Origin: Eubacteriales bacterium
Lineage (GTDB): Bacteria; Bacillota; Clostridia; Lachnospirales; Lachnospiraceae
DNA length: 64,000 nt
Reading direction: 5' to 3'
Assembly: GCA_030533405.1 (NCBI GenBank)
Contig: JAUNJF010000012.1
Coordinates: 1-64,000 of the forward strand
Below, in pieces: positions 1,806-63,626 of the stretch. Within the stretch, counting starts at the first letter, position 1; every line of letters starts with the position of its first letter. The notes beneath the pieces were generated by a model that ran no database searches, was not told the DNA's origin, and saw only the letters and a list, made by a program, of their open reading frames with translations. Position numbers and translations under genes: made by a program.

Positions 1806-2321
1806 TTAGTTCCTTTCTTTTAATGTATTATGTTTATGTGAAGATTCTTCACAATAGAACGCAGATGTGTTTTTTGCCATGATTTGAAGGGCAGACTCTA
1901 CGACAGAAAGTTGTTCTTCGCTAAGTCCATCGAGAAGTTGTGTATTCCAGCGGCGAAGAATTTCCATCATGGTCTCTTGAAAGGCAATTCCCTGCGAGGT
2001 TAATGAAAAGAGGTAGGAACGGGAATCTGCAGGATTTTGTTCTCTTTCAACAAATCCTTTTTGCTCAAGTTCCTTCATGGTTCTTGTCATGACCCCCTTG
2101 TCATAATGTATTTCTCGGATGAGTTCATCTTGGGTGTTACTTCCAAACATTTCATGATTCCCTGAAATTGACGTATGATTCGAGGTTTTTCGATACATCA
2201 TGAGTAGAACGATTCCTTCTGCTGCATTGAGGTTGTAGGGCAGAAGTGCGTCTCGAAGATACAGTTTAAAATATTTGTCGGCAATCATCATATTTCTACC
2301 AATACTTACAAATTTTTCCAT
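1806..2321 (-). CDS. MarR-family transcriptional regulator of the efflux operon
   Basis: Winged-helix DNA-binding repressor of the MarR family, 171 residues. The wHTH is visible as TQDELIREIHYDKGVMTRT, followed by KELEQKGFVERE and the wing with a DSRSY motif (MarR proteins usually have D-x-R). About fifteen extra residues (NHTSISGNHEMFGS) sit between the second and third helices. I chose the ATG at 2321 because AAGGAG lies 6 bases upstream; a longer in-frame start at 2420 lacks such a site and would overlap the promoter. It is the first gene of an operon with the MFS pump, and an inverted repeat just downstream of its promoter suggests autorepression relieved by a ligand. The ligand cannot be inferred. 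Confidence 0.9.
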   Translation of the reverse strand: MEKFVSIGRNMMIADKYFKLYLRDALLPYNLNAAEGIVLLMMYRKTSNHTSISGNHEMFGSNTQDELIREIHYDKGVMTRTMKELEQKGFVEREQNPADSRSYLFSLTSQGIAFQETMMEILRRWNTQLLDGLSEEQLSVVESALQIMAKNTSAFYCEESSHKHNTLKERN

Positions 2322-2344
2322 TATGTACTCCTTATTTATAAAAG

Positions 2345-2362
2345 TAGTTGCTTTTGCAACTA
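2345..2362. promoter_or_regulatory. Probable MarR operator
   Basis: Perfect inverted repeat TAGTTGC-TTTT-GCAACTA. It lies between the predicted transcription start (near 2370) and the marR ATG. Dyads with TTGC/GCAA half-sites at this location are typical MarR-family operators; binding here would block the marR-efflux operon. Assignment is inferred from symmetry and position. Confidence 0.7.
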
Positions 2363-2376
2363 AAATTCCAAGCGAC

Positions 2377-2405
2377 ATTGTAGCACTTTGTTTTTTTGAT
2401 GTCAA
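2377..2405 (-). promoter_or_regulatory. Sigma-A promoter of the marR-efflux operon
   Basis: On the minus strand, TTGACA (2405-2400) and TACAAT (2382-2377) are separated by exactly 17 bases, almost the vegetative consensus. Transcription would start near 2370, just before the marR operator. Confidence 0.8.
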
Positions 2406-2513
2406 ATATGGATACCACAATAAATATACATTTACTTTACAATCGTAACCATGAGTATGCTATAATGCATTGCAGAATATATTTTTATACAGTAGTCAAT
2501 GATAAGGATAAAA

Positions 2514-3290
2514 ATGCATATGAAAAGAAGCAAACAAAATAAAGGAAAAAAGAATAATCAGATTACTGCAGGTTATTTATGAGCAGAATATTTCTATTGC
2601 GAATATGGTGGGACCAACGCTTGATGCCAATACCATTTTGCCGTATCAAAAAAAGGATATTCGTTTTGTGGATGATCCGAAAGAGAAAAAGATTAGTCGA
2701 AAGACAAAGAAAAAATATGGGTATGAGCCAAAGGAATTAAATGCAGAAACACGGAAAAATGTTGCAAAAGGAATTCGAAAAAGTTCGTCATTTGTACGAA
2801 AAATTTTTGGTATTTTTTTTGTTGTCGTTACTATGGTTATACATATCGTGTTAATGTGTATGATACCACGATTCAAAAGCATCGAATGTTTGAATTCAAA
2901 TGTTCTCAGGCAATTGATGCATATCGCTTTGCAGACTTGAAGAAGATGGAAAAACTGAATGTAGGAGGAAATGTAGGATATATTTTTTCAGGTGCTGAAG
3001 GAATGAATGAGAACGTTACAGAGTTGAACAGTGAAAGCGCCAATGATTATTCTTTTCTCAAACTTTTTCCGAATCTTACAACACTTTCGGTTGCTGGTCA
3101 GGACTTCAGTACGTTAGATGATATTGTTCAATTTGAGTATCTTGAAAATTTGGATATTCGTGATAATTTGTTGCGTGATATTTCAGATTTATCAAAATTG
3201 AAAAATTTGAAAACGGTGAATGTGGATAATAATCCGTTGACGAAGGATGCGGAGCAATTTGGACTGAAGAATGTGGAAATTGTAAAGTGA
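2514..3290 (+). pseudogene. Frameshifted membrane-anchored leucine-rich-repeat protein
   Basis: Three pieces in two frames appear to form one broken gene. Piece 1 starts at ATG 2514 after an AAGGA site, is strongly basic (begins MHMKRSKQNKGKK) and hits TGA at 2580. Piece 2 runs in the +1 frame from about 2581, is charged, and enters a hydrophobic membrane segment (IFGIFFVVVTMVI) near 2810-2840. Piece 3 returns to the first frame and continues to 3290. It contains leucine-rich-repeat signatures such as LFPNLTTLSVAGQ, FEYLENLDIRDN and LKNLKTVNVDNN. A run of eight T at 2813-2820 is a likely slip site for the second shift. The intact protein would have a cytoplasmic basic tail, one membrane helix and an exported LRR domain. 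The shifts could be real decay or sequence error. A weak promoter with TATAAT at 2461 precedes it. Confidence 0.6.
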
Positions 3291-3317: not shown

Positions 3318-3346
3318 TGTACAAATAAAAAAAGAAGTGTTATACT
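3318..3346 (+). promoter_or_regulatory. Promoter of the mgtE leader
   Basis: TGTACA (3318-3323) and TATACT (3341-3346) are separated by 17 bases. Transcription would start near 3353, ahead of the leader ORF's ribosome binding site, giving a leader of roughly 230 bases before mgtE. Confidence 0.55.
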
Positions 3347-3378
3347 AGTCAAAGCGAAAGAATAAAGGAGGCGAGATT

Positions 3379-3471
3379 ATGGACAGTTGTGATAGTCAGA
3401 GTCGAGGTACATACAACGATGGACTAGGCTTGGATTTTATTTCAAGTGTCTGTAAGTACGCCGTTTTGTAA
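3379..3471 (+). CDS. Leader peptide upstream of mgtE
   Basis: A 30-codon ORF with one of the best ribosome binding sites in the window (AAAGGAGG at 3364-3371, 7 bases before ATG 3379). The peptide begins MDSCDSQSRGTYND and ends SSVCKYAVL. It does not match a protein family I know. Its codons 13-15 overlap the first of three RNA segments that can pair alternately (3416-3423), so translating ribosomes would cover that segment. This is the arrangement of an attenuator leader peptide. The early Asp residues recall MgtL-type peptides, whose translation is sensitive to magnesium, but the similarity is only functional inference. Confidence 0.6.
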   Translation: MDSCDSQSRGTYNDGLGLDFISSVCKYAVL

Positions 3472-3550
3472 TACATTTAAGCCCATTCCATCGTTTTAGA
3501 ATGTCACAACCATGTAGGTATTGTGTAGTTTTACACGATGGATTTTTTAT
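3416..3550 (+). promoter_or_regulatory. Candidate attenuator: alternative hairpins before mgtE
   Basis: Segment 1 ACGATGGA (3416-3423, inside the leader ORF), segment 2 TCCATCGT (3487-3494) and segment 3 ACGATGGA (3535-3542) are exact complements in the order 1:2 or 2:3. Pairing 2:3 encloses an inner CACAA/TTGTG stem (3505-3509 with 3521-3525) and is followed at once by six T (3543-3548), so it resembles an intrinsic terminator. Pairing 1:2 would prevent it. Ribosomes moving through segment 1 would favour termination; abortive or absent translation would favour readthrough. No ykoK (M-box) sequence pattern is present. Confidence 0.6.
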
Positions 3551-3580
3551 GCCCTTTTTTAGGGAGAATGGAGGCTTAAA

Positions 3581-4975
3581 GTGGAAAAAGAGATTTTGAA
3601 AGAACCAATGTTTGTAGAAGAGATTGTTTCGGTTATTCGTAGTGGCGCAAGCAATGAAGAAATTGTTGAAAAATTACATGATTATCATGAAAATGATATT
3701 GCGCAGGCATTAGAGGTACTTAGCAAAGAAGAACGTGTACAATTATATGCGTTATTGGGGGCAGAGTGGTTTTCTGAGATTCTTTCTTTTGTGGACGAAC
3801 CGGAACAATATATTGATGAACTCGGAATTGACCAGTTGGCTGCCATTATCAATGAGATGGATTCGGATGATGCAGTAGACTTATTGGAAGAGATTGACGA
3901 ATCTATTATGGATCAGTTGCGTCCGATTTTGGATGAGGATGTAAAAGCGGATATTTGTTTGATTCACTCTTATGAGGATGATGAGATTGGTAGTTTGATT
4001 ACGACAAATTATGTTTGTATCAAGAACGATTTGAATATCAAACAGGCAACGCATGAGCTGATAAAACAAGCTGGTGATAATGATAATATTTCAACAATTT
4101 ATGTGTTAGATGATAAAGACCAGTTTTGTGGTGCAATTGATTTGAAGGATTTGATTATTGCAAGACAAAATGCAGTGCTCGATGATTTGATCATTTATTC
4201 CTATCCGTATTTGCTTGATCATGAAAAGATTTCAGAAAGTATTGAGAAAATTAAGGATTATGCAGAAGATTCGCTTCCAGTATTAAATGATGAGAAAAAG
4301 ATTATTGGAATTATCACTGCGCAGGATGTTATCGAAGCAGTGGATGATGAAATGGGTGAAGATTACGCAAAGTTCGCGGGTTTGACAGCAGAGGAAGATT
4401 TAAAAGAAACGACAACGGAGAGTATGAAGAAGCGTTTGCCATGGCTGATTGTGTTACTATTTCTTGGCATGGGTGTATCAACAGTTGTTGGCGCATTTGA
4501 AGGTGTTGTAGCAGTGTTGCCGATTGTCATTTGTTTTCAGTCTTTAATTTTGGATATGGCGGGTAATGTAGGAACCCAGTCACTTGCTGTTACGATTCGT
4601 GTGTTGATGGATGAAGAATTGACAGCAAAGGATAAATTAACGTTAGTTGTGAAGGAAATCAAGGTAGGATTTAGCAATGGATTACTTCTTGGTATGTTGG
4701 CGTTATTATTCCTTGGATTATATATCAAATTCTTTAAGGGATATGCCTTGACAGCAGCTTTTATGATTTCAGGTTGCGTGGGTGCATCATTGCTGCTTGC
4801 TATGATTATTTCCAGTCTGGTTGGAACTTTAGTACCGCTGTTTTTCCATAAAATTAAGGTGGATCCAGCGGTTGCATCGGGACCACTGATTACAACGGTA
4901 AATGATTTGGTTGCGGTTGTTACGTATTATGGATTATCCTGGGTACTTTTGATTCAGGTTATGCATATGGTTTGA
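3581..4975 (+). CDS. mgtE: Magnesium transporter MgtE
   Basis: Mg2+ channel/transporter of the MgtE family, 464 residues, the usual length. Order of domains: helical MgtE N-domain (about 1-130), two CBS domains (about 135-260, with VLDDKDQFCGAIDLKD and LPVLNDEKKIIGIIT), then a five-helix membrane domain carrying the conserved DMAGNVGTQS and DPAVASGPLITTVND motifs that line the ion pore. The start is GTG at 3581 with GGAGG six bases upstream. In the family the cytoplasmic domains bind Mg2+ and close the pore when cellular Mg2+ is high. Expression here seems to be governed by the leader ORF and alternative hairpins upstream. It stands alone between that leader and a terminator at 5004. Confidence 0.96.
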   Translation: MEKEILKEPMFVEEIVSVIRSGASNEEIVEKLHDYHENDIAQALEVLSKEERVQLYALLGAEWFSEILSFVDEPEQYIDELGIDQLAAIINEMDSDDAVDLLEEIDESIMDQLRPILDEDVKADICLIHSYEDDEIGSLITTNYVCIKNDLNIKQATHELIKQAGDNDNISTIYVLDDKDQFCGAIDLKDLIIARQNAVLDDLIIYSYPYLLDHEKISESIEKIKDYAEDSLPVLNDEKKIIGIITAQDVIEAVDDEMGEDYAKFAGLTAEEDLKETTTESMKKRLPWLIVLLFLGMGVSTVVGAFEGVVAVLPIVICFQSLILDMAGNVGTQSLAVTIRVLMDEELTAKDKLTLVVKEIKVGFSNGLLLGMLALLFLGLYIKFFKGYALTAAFMISGCVGASLLLAMIISSLVGTLVPLFFHKIKVDPAVASGPLITTVNDLVAVVTYYGLSWVLLIQVMHMV

Positions 4976-5140: not shown

Positions 5141-6142
5141 ATGGAGGTGAACACAATAGAAGATAAAGAAATTGTTGAACTGTTTTTAAAACGGGATGAA
5201 TCCGCTATTGAACAGGTTCAACTGAAATATGGTCAGAGATTGAAAAAAATTGCATACGAGATTACAGAAGATTTTCAGACAGCAGAAGAATGTGAGAATG
5301 ACACATATTTAAAAACATGGGAGTCAATACCACCGCATACACCATATGATTATCTATATCCATTTTTGGTACACATCAATCGTAATGTTGCACTTAATTA
5401 TTGTAGATACAGAAATAGTAAAAAAAGAAAGGTAAGCACGATGGAGTTGTCGACGGAATTAGAACAGATTCTTCCTGGGATGAACGACATTGAAGAGTGG
5501 ATTGATGATTTGCTGGATGGTACATTCGACATTAGTCCAAATATAGAATTAAATGCAGGCTTTAGTTTGTCGATACATCGGGATCAGGAAAATAATGCGA
5601 TTTTAACATGGCGTATGATTGAAGCGACAAGAAGCAGAGATGATAAGATCAGTGCTTTACAAATGGAGGAAAATGAAATGGAAAAAGAATCCGTTGTGAT
5701 TGGAACGTTTCAAGTGCCGCAAAATATGACAACGTTAAAGAATGTGGAACTTGATGTGTCGCAAAGTGTCTTGGTGAAAAGGGTGATTGTTTCTGGAATG
5801 ACCATGCAGATGACGTTTGATGATGCCTATGCAAATGAGCAATTTGAAAAACAATTGAAGGAGTCTGGAGAATGGGATCAGCCAGATTTTGATTTGGAGG
5901 AACATGGATATAGTTTTTATGATAAAGAGCTGTCTTTGGTTATGAAGGATGGAACCAAACATGTGATTTGGCGTGCGGATGGAAATTATGACGAGAAATT
6001 TGCTGTCAATGGTTTTGGAACAGGAAATGATGGAACTGGTTTGGTGGATGAAGTCATAGGTTTTGCAGAATTCATTGATGTAGATGAAATTGATTATTTG
6101 CAAATGGATGATGAGATTTTTAAATTGCAGGAAACAAAATAA
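5141..6142 (+). CDS. Chimera: ECF sigma region 2 fused to anti-sigma-like C-terminal domain
   Basis: A 333-residue protein whose first 110 residues look like region 2 of an ECF sigma factor (KEIVELFLKRDESAIE, TAEECENDTYLKTW, LVHINRNVALNYCRYRNSKK). Where a sigma factor would have its region-4 helix-turn-helix, the chain instead enters a sequence reading NDIEEWIDDLLDGTFDISPN, with no region 4 and no membrane helix. The rest resembles the exported portion of the membrane anti-sigma proteins usually encoded next to such sigma genes. The simplest explanation is an in-frame deletion that removed region 4, the intergenic part and the membrane anchor, fusing the two neighbours. Whether it is made or functional is unknown. 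Start ATG 5141 follows AGAGG; the gene has its own terminator. Confidence 0.7.
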   Translation: MEVNTIEDKEIVELFLKRDESAIEQVQLKYGQRLKKIAYEITEDFQTAEECENDTYLKTWESIPPHTPYDYLYPFLVHINRNVALNYCRYRNSKKRKVSTMELSTELEQILPGMNDIEEWIDDLLDGTFDISPNIELNAGFSLSIHRDQENNAILTWRMIEATRSRDDKISALQMEENEMEKESVVIGTFQVPQNMTTLKNVELDVSQSVLVKRVIVSGMTMQMTFDDAYANEQFEKQLKESGEWDQPDFDLEEHGYSFYDKELSLVMKDGTKHVIWRADGNYDEKFAVNGFGTGNDGTGLVDEVIGFAEFIDVDEIDYLQMDDEIFKLQETK

Positions 6143-63369: not shown

Positions 63370-63626
63370 TGCTGTGACATTGATAGCGAAGAAGCGTGAG
63401 GTTGCTACTGATTCAGTAGGTTTTCCGTGGAGCGAATGTCAAGTTAAGAAACTGACGGCAAGTCACTGTACCATAACCATCCGGGAAGTCATGGGATTTC
63501 AAAATACGGAGATGACGTGTGAAAGAGCGAATCAGTACATTCTAATTTGCGACACACACGGGAGAGTGTGCAGTCACCACTTGTCGTACAAGAACCAATA
63601 AGTACGAAAAGGAGGCGGCTTTTTTT
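63370..63626 (+). ncRNA. Structured leader RNA of the S10 ribosomal protein operon
   Basis: About 257 untranslated bases between the promoter and rpsJ, GC-richer than nearby intergenic DNA. Domain 1: TGACATT (63375-63381) pairs with AATGTCA (63435-63441), enclosing CTACTG/CAGTAG (63405-63410, 63414-63419). A TGAC-GGCAA-GTCA hairpin follows near 63453-63465. Domain 3: CGACA (63550-63554) with TGTCG (63582-63586), enclosing CACAC/GTGTG (63555-63559, 63566-63570). The last arm ends about 20 bases before the GGAGG. This is the place for autogenous control by a ribosomal protein (L4 in E. coli), but the fold is not one I can name. Confidence 0.65.

Follow-up and report, generated by a model that had tools for sequence, protein, structure and literature searches.

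The M-box riboswitch is the textbook control of mgtE in Firmicutes; it senses Mg2+ by direct binding, without a leader peptide. Control by Mg2+ through the translation of a leader peptide is known from enteric bacteria. In attenuators of the trp and his type, the position of a ribosome on a short open reading frame (ORF) selects between an antiterminator and an intrinsic terminator. For Bacillus subtilis, PMC12288461 describes attenuation of mgtE by the M-box (ykoK, RF00380). In Escherichia coli, according to PMC11282234, the leader peptide MgtL stands before the Mg2+ transporter gene mgtA and has early acidic residues (EPDP) of the kind that destabilise ribosomes; low Mg2+ promotes ribosome loss on MgtL and releases mgtA, such that full translation leads to Rho-dependent termination and aborted translation to expression. 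In Salmonella, PMC8092293 describes the 8-codon ORF mgtQ, a short ORF before the Mg2+ transporter gene mgtB, with acidic codons exactly at positions 2 and 5 (Asp2 and Glu5) that hinder translation there and raise MgtB. Alternative stem-loops overlap this ORF, and mgtQ lies inside an operon and governs the translation of mgtB rather than termination (PMC8092293).

In this work, we analyzed the leader of mgtE in a window of 64,000 nucleotides (the whole stretch of DNA considered here; features in Table 1) and compared it with its homologues. The encoded protein matches Pfam MgtE, MgtE_N, and CBS, as well as NCBIfam TIGR00400. A preliminary description of this DNA had listed a 30-codon ORF with a ribosome site, three segments, six T, and then mgtE, and all of these were found in place. 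The sequence AAAGGAGG stands 5' of the leader ORF start. The 8-nt core of segment 1, ACGATGGA, lies within this ORF at 3416-3423, that of segment 2 is TCCATCGT (3487-3494), and that of segment 3 is again ACGATGGA (3535-3542), followed by TTTTTT at 3543-3548. The promoter claimed in the same description fared less evenly: a consensus scan gave a plausible match with an extended -10, TGTTATACT, at 3338-3346, but the region has 8 such matches where shuffled sequences lead one to expect 10.4, and hence no excess.

Table 1. Features of the mgtE leader and of mgtE, with positions in the window.
Feature	Position	Strand	Basis
mgtE leader	3353-3580	+	Sequence and ORF list
Putative vegetative promoter: TGTACA, 17 nt, TATACT, extended -10 (TG 3338-3339)	3318-3346	+	9/12 consensus matches
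Leader-ORF ribosome-binding site region, AATAAAGGAGGCGAGATT	3361-3378	+	Sequence; similar sites in relatives
Leader ORF, ATG start, 30 codons (30 aa), MDSCDSQSRGTYNDGLGLDFISSVCKYAVL	3379-3471	+	ORF list, homologue comparison
Codons 2-5 with conserved acidic residues Asp2 (3382-3384) and Asp5 (3391-3393)	3382-3393	+	Changes on tree
CGA arginine codon (codon 9), proposed decision point	3403-3405	+	Codon counts, spacing, folding model
Segment 1, AACGATGGA, antiterminator 5' arm, within ORF	3415-3423	+	Triple search, pair tables, covariation
Flank 2', TTTAAGCC, complementary to mgtE ribosome-site region	3476-3483	+	Sequence, folding
Segment 2, TCCATCGTT, shared arm	3487-3495	+	Triple search, pair tables, covariation
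Intrinsic terminator: segment 2, structured loop, segment 3, T6	3487-3548	+	Folding vs. shuffles, terminator test
Segment 3, CACGATGGA, terminator 3' arm	3534-3542	+	Triple search, pair tables, covariation
Conserved post-terminator box, ATGCCCTTTTTTAGGG	3549-3564	+	Alignment of 10 loci
GGCTTAAA at mgtE ribosome site, possible 2' partner	3573-3580	+	Folding, complementarity test
mgtE, Mg2+ transporter, 464 aa, GTG start	3581-4975	+	ORF list, Pfam, NCBIfam

We propose, with a probability of roughly 0.65, that this leader is a transcription attenuator controlled by a ribosome, which turns mgtE on when translation of codons 2-9 is slow or breaks off, probably under low Mg2+. The proposal builds on traits established by sequence comparison, namely, a conserved ORF and peptide start, the CGA codon and its spacing, alternative covarying pairings, and the link to mgtE. 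RNA polymerase would start near 3353, and a ribosome would begin the leader ORF. As long as this ribosome is still initiating, moves slowly, or is repeatedly lost within codons 2-9 (Asp2, Asp5, and then CGA at codon 9, probably a slow codon, as it is in a bacterial his-leader assay, PMC4046918), segment 1 would stay bare and pair with segment 2 once the latter is made, and transcription would continue into mgtE. Upon prompt passage of CGA, the ribosome would instead cover segment 1, and the 2:3 hairpin with its T6 would end transcription around 3548. In any transcript that reads through, flank 2' may in addition mask the mgtE ribosome site. The preliminary description passed over the invariant CGA, its fixed distance to segment 1, and this possible masking.

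Set against the known systems, the present leader differs from mgtQ in its intrinsic terminator, its fixed CGA, its longer ORF (20-54 aa across the relatives), and the type of transporter (MgtE). The transporter type also separates it from MgtL; furthermore, the EPDP N-terminus is absent from the 59 leaders scored, and the terminator is intrinsic with a T run. As in trp/his attenuators, the ribosome position would choose the helix, here according to a folding model. Unlike in those attenuators, no run of codons for one amino acid was found in the leader peptides, the controlled gene encodes an ion transporter, and segment 1 lies in the ORF just past the proposed waiting codon.

The whole leader is more stable than 200 of 200 dinucleotide shuffles (z = -4.94), and the same holds for the leader cut just past the T run (z = -3.72, 200/200) and for the terminator part alone (z = -4.08, 200/200). 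A generic terminator scan made no call on the leader hairpin and found no excess in the region; the hairpin was missed because the loop between its arms (3495-3534) is longer than the scanner's limit of 8. Within this loop, CACAAC and TTGTG can make an inner hairpin (window 3505-3525), and CACAAC or CACGAC occurs in the terminator loop of most close-group members. Searched against Rfam at E <= 10, the leader gave only two irrelevant matches far under the cut-offs, by which an M-box or another known RNA is ruled out as its identity. The RF00380 covariance model found no M-box in the window or, under strict filters, in its own genome; the sole above-threshold Rfam match in the window is an S10-Clostridia ribosomal protein leader at 63381-63461. 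Four leader peptides compared with Pfam and NCBIfam had no match at E <= 1, which rules out a known leader-peptide or protein family.

MgtE homologues were detected by protein search in 62 of 98 genomes, and a second collection provided at least 80 further mgtE loci (435 candidates). A close MgtE clade (at least 51% identity over nearly the whole protein) is distinct from a clade with ~30% identity. The set comprised 102 close homologues with a recognizable start, reduced to 99 by removal of near-duplicates (L022, L050, and L051); one locus without a start codon (L106) and seven from the ~30% clade (L024-L030) were left out. Short ORFs in the 600 nt upstream were scored with a leave-one-out profile of nine residues plus the ribosome site, and 297 stretches (reverse complement, inside mgtE, and shuffled; three per locus) served as controls. 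An MDSCDSxGRS-like ORF with a score above 4 was found within 600 nt upstream in 59 of the 99 non-redundant homologues, the window included, compared with 1 of the 297 controls; 43 of the homologues had also been used to train the profile, and close neighbors therefore raise each other's scores. Inspection by eye added 14 shortened or lengthened variants (MDGDSHYRS, MANGDSYGSDGRS, etc.), which brings the leader to 73 of 99. No leader was found by script in 26 of the 99; in L077, L108, and perhaps L080, a variant missed by the script is visible by eye. Diverged forms also exist (e.g., L023, L056, and L071). The nearest relative (L002, 83% identity), one of these 26, has no leader ORF and retains the terminator and the box that follows.

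Independently of mgtE, we searched 299 genomes drawn from the family with a 30-nt DNA motif, allowing up to three mismatches. One site was found in each of 21 genomes, the window's own included, and none with a reversed-motif control. An mgtE gene lies downstream of 20 of these 21 sites (own window included), with a product 52-100% identical to that of the window; the site L122 is inside an unrelated gene and has no start codon. Seven of the 20 mgtE-linked sites repeat loci already in the set and 13 are new. Among 391 genomes of the class, the strict motif occurred in three (the window's own, G052, and one without mgtE, L143), as did the reversed motif; a wider spread by this motif was rejected, since matches beyond the family are at chance level. 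It looks as if many Lachnospiraceae gut bacteria have a conserved leader before mgtE that represents an unrecognized family of Mg2+-responsive switches. In open-licence PubMed Central, no description of such an mgtE leader was found, judged by title and abstract among the matches listed. Two loci have peculiarities of gene content: in L118, the mgtE match after the leader starts at query residue 108, as if the N-terminal domain were missing, and genomes G011 and G037 have two close-clade mgtE copies each, of which the copy on G037:C1 has the leader (L117).

The M-box has a different distribution. RF00380 was found in 11 of 96 relatives and in none of the 23 genomes holding a close-clade mgtE, with the reservation that the search of more than 40 genomes used stricter filters that lose weak matches. 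Seven of the 11 M-boxes lie within 600 nt upstream of an mgtE with ~30% identity, and one more is ~1.1 kb upstream. Each kind of MgtE thus seems to have its own kind of control.

In each of the 73 leaders, we searched for a triple made up of segment 1 (between nt 31 and 57 of the ORF), segment 2, and a segment 3 next to a T run, and compared its score with those of 100 shuffles. Of the 73, 64 have a triple; it reaches p <= 0.05 in 30 leaders and p <= 0.01 in 26 of them (L084 is among the triples; it was removed from the pair tables by eye as spurious). The same procedure applied to fake anchors reached these levels in 7 and 1 of 99, respectively. Among the 13 new loci, used as a hold-out, 6 had p <= 0.05, 3 had p <= 0.01, and 4 had no triple. 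The joint test at 0.05 was failed by 43 of the 73 leaders and 7 of the 13 hold-outs. Blautia-type leaders and the SYRR group mostly fail it; therefore, other arrangements must exist. By a cruder earlier test, 51 of 59 leaders have a terminator and 23 have a significant segment 1.

Within the 27 triples with p <= 0.02 (L084 excluded), the pairs are standard in 219 (1:2) and 206 (2:3) of the 243 cells per helix. The central 1:2 column alternates between A-U (13) and G-C (10), and 2:3 changes to match (U-A 12, C-G 13). Covariation was measured in a MAFFT alignment of 21 of the 27 triples (A1; L034, L062, L082, L095, L105, and L060 left out); L011 and L048 align incorrectly at segment 2, and some rows are close relatives of each other. 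In this alignment, helix 1:2 scores 0.301, where shuffles average 0.174 (sd 0.022), and helix 2:3 scores 0.253, where they average 0.167 (sd 0.022), with 0 of 500 shuffles as high in either case, and every slid version of the two helices scores lower. By weaker measures, shuffles reach the doubly changed pairs of 1:2 in 26 of 500 and its further pair types in 21 of 500; for 2:3, doubly changed pairs (reached by 164/500) and pair types (488/500) are not above shuffles. The leader thus has mutually exclusive antiterminator and intrinsic terminator helices. The preliminary description regarded it as a translation-coupled attenuator unlike the M-box and named a short ORF conserved in relatives, covarying segments, and the lack of a ykoK match in Rfam as support; all three were found, and the anatomy agrees.

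The claim that segments 1, 2, and 3 pair as 1:2 or 2:3 also holds, but that these are the only pairings does not, for flank 2' (TTTAAGCC) can pair with GGCTTAAA. In addition, the AAGCC of flank 2' could alternatively pair with the GGCTT adjoining segment 1. Complementarity between 2' and the mgtE ribosome site has p <= 0.05 in 8 of 27 leaders (200 single-base shuffles), and in an alignment of 10 loci (A2), 2' is shifted between rows. Masking of the ribosome site by 2' as a second layer of control is therefore possible, and the evidence is suggestive only.

The position of segment 1 is tied to CGA. From the first base of CGA to the segment 1 core (searched at nt 32-52), the distance is 14 nt in 21 of the 23 measurable leaders among the 27; the exceptions are L081 (13 nt) and L038 (20 nt). 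The 14 nt are preserved even in L003, L011, and L036, which have two codons fewer ahead of CGA; this identifies CGA rather than the start codon as the anchor. The distance from segment 1 to segment 2 is variable (66 to 291 nt), and the stop of the leader ORF precedes segment 2 in 26 of 26.

To model the effect of a ribosome, we computed partition functions for leader RNA that ends short of segment 3. A 28-nt footprint was assumed, which extends to CGA+12 at its leading edge for a ribosome with CGA in the A site, and the CGA codon was located by the 14-nt rule. The 26 modeled leaders were picked for their pairings, and several are near-identical (L033/L034 and L055/L059). With the ribosome at least two codons short of CGA, 1:2 forms (P > 0.5) in 24-26 of 26 leaders, and with the ribosome one codon short in 20. 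With CGA in the A site, it forms in 16 (window 0.87), one codon beyond in 2, and further on in none. In this model, the loss of 1:2 beyond CGA would make this codon, or its neighbor, the last waiting place that leaves the antiterminator free. A ribosome covering segment 1 leads to 2:3 (P > 0.5) in all 26, and the idle full-length leader favors 2:3 in 21 of 26. Adding segment 3 to the model with the ribosome at CGA leaves 1:2 dominant at equilibrium (P > 0.5) in no more than 13 of the 26 leaders (window 0.92). This speaks against the simple picture, as antitermination in that state would require kinetics by which 1:2 forms ahead of 2:3.

The alternative that survives best holds that any failure of translation, including a lack of initiation, leads to antitermination, as in the usual picture of MgtL. 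Its logic equals that of MgtL in E. coli (PMC11282234), and 14 of the 26 leaders form 1:2 without a ribosome before segment 3 is made. Nevertheless, the other 12 idle leaders, including the window (0.00), do not, whereas 1:2 forms in 26 of 26 once the RNA is masked as far as the edge of a ribosome at CGA (CGA+11). The count for CGA in the A site is thus 16 or 26 of 26, according to the footprint chosen. We consider this reading unlikely, although it is the strongest competitor. The preliminary description had antitermination follow from disturbed translation; a ribosome delayed or aborting near the start would be in keeping with this, and judging from the modeled folding of idle leaders and those with a waiting ribosome, a simple lack of translation fits less well.

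Changes in codons 2-10 were reconstructed by parsimony on the MgtE tree for 54 of the 59 leaders (L003, L011, L036, L041, and L102 omitted for length changes), which gave 36 changes at first, 38 at second, and 63 at third codon positions. Asp2 has no amino-acid change and 6 third-position changes, and Asp5 has 1 and 9. The third-position excess comes from codons 2, 4, 5, 7, and 8; codons 3, 6, 9, and 10 show none on this tree. Codons 11-17 are variable, with 13 to 28 amino-acid changes each. Stops within codons 2-20 occur in 0 of 59 leaders in frame 0, 18 in frame +1, and 59 in frame +2, the ORF selection by itself ensuring only the first ten stop-free codons. Asp2 is found in 59 of 59 leaders and Asp5 in 56, early acidic residues as in peptides of the MgtL/mgtQ type, and these frequencies are partly circular because both residues helped select the leaders. 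Some codons are also fixed. Where Arg9 is present, it is always the rare CGA (48/48), compared with 7% of the Arg codons in the same mgtE genes; Ser3 is AGT in 48 of 50 leaders, and Ser10 is AGT in 33 of 33 compared with a background of 14%. In L041, one nucleotide fewer shifts the frame just ahead of CGAAGT. Given the fixed Ser codons and the lack of a third-position excess at codons 6, 9, and 10, some of this conservation may reflect selection on the RNA or on codons, and both the peptide and the codons or RNA seem to matter. The picture is that of a short leader ORF with a ribosome site, selected as a peptide, on a transcript whose 5' end is predicted. As to a possible tRNA basis for the proposed pause at CGA, we found 25 tRNA places in the draft assembly of the window's genome, with Arg anticodons TCT, CCG, and CCT and no ACG or TCG.

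Low Mg2+ as the most likely signal turning mgtE on would follow from the controlled gene (mgtE, at 20 of 21 sites) and the early acidic residues. A less favored alternative, which we regard as improbable, retains the same attenuator with another signal, in which mgtE is turned on by generally slow translation, by low ATP, or by a lack of charged tRNA for Arg, Ser, or Cys. CGA is slowly read in the his-leader assay (PMC4046918), conservation at AGT and CGA extends from the amino acid to the codon itself, and the Salmonella mgtCBR leader responds to ATP and charged tRNA-Pro (PMC3641672). This signal is harder to reconcile with the lack of a single-amino-acid run like that of classical attenuators, with the position of the leader before mgtE at nearly all motif sites, and with Asp2 and Asp5 being the most constant residues, at the positions that count in mgtQ.

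A quite improbable alternative takes the RNA itself as the ion sensor, that is, a new riboswitch in which the ORF is incidental. The nucleotides of CGAAGT and AGT are fixed, L041 retains CGAAGT out of frame, and the ORF region of the window is stably structured. However, third positions are the most variable ones at Asp2, Cys4, and Asp5, length changes in L003, L011, and L036 are of whole codons, and only frame 0 is stop-free to codon 20 in all 59 leaders (frame +1 is open in 41). Moreover, the leader ORF has a good ribosome site, and A1 is poorly conserved outside the alternative helices (mean column identity 32%). Finally, chance repeats at an ordinary constitutive terminator, for which only the lack of an excess in the generic terminator scan speaks, are extremely improbable given the fixed spacing and the shuffle and fake-anchor tests and, most strongly, the covariation and hold-out tests.

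A broader reading of the attenuator proposed above, to which we give even odds, is that MDSCDSxGRS defines a new family of Mg2+-sensing leader peptides in Lachnospiraceae and related Clostridia, in which the first nine codons would act as a sensor: the Asp pair would loosen the ribosome under Mg2+ scarcity, and the invariant CGA would be a fixed waiting point one step before the antiterminator arm. Such a family would be independent of MgtL and mgtQ, with the same acidic positions by convergence, and would replace the M-box in this MgtE clade. A conserved leader before at least 59 mgtE genes would be an independent solution that uses the acidic positions of Salmonella mgtQ. It would offer a natural data set of many species for the way in which early acidic residues and a slow codon time a ribosome. 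It also yields a prediction as to the gut bacteria in which Mg2+ uptake is raised through sensing translation.

In the post-terminator box, GCCC and GGG could make a small hairpin, as could GCTC and GAGC in L035, and a similar box is retained in L002, in which the leader ORF is absent. Among the neighboring genes, an ORF with leucine-rich repeats lies immediately 5' of the leader (window 2856-3290), and a MarR-type regulator is encoded on the minus strand (window 1806-2420). Downstream of mgtE, a 333-aa ORF (window 5141-6142) has a sigma-70 region 2 at its N-terminus and no further Pfam match.
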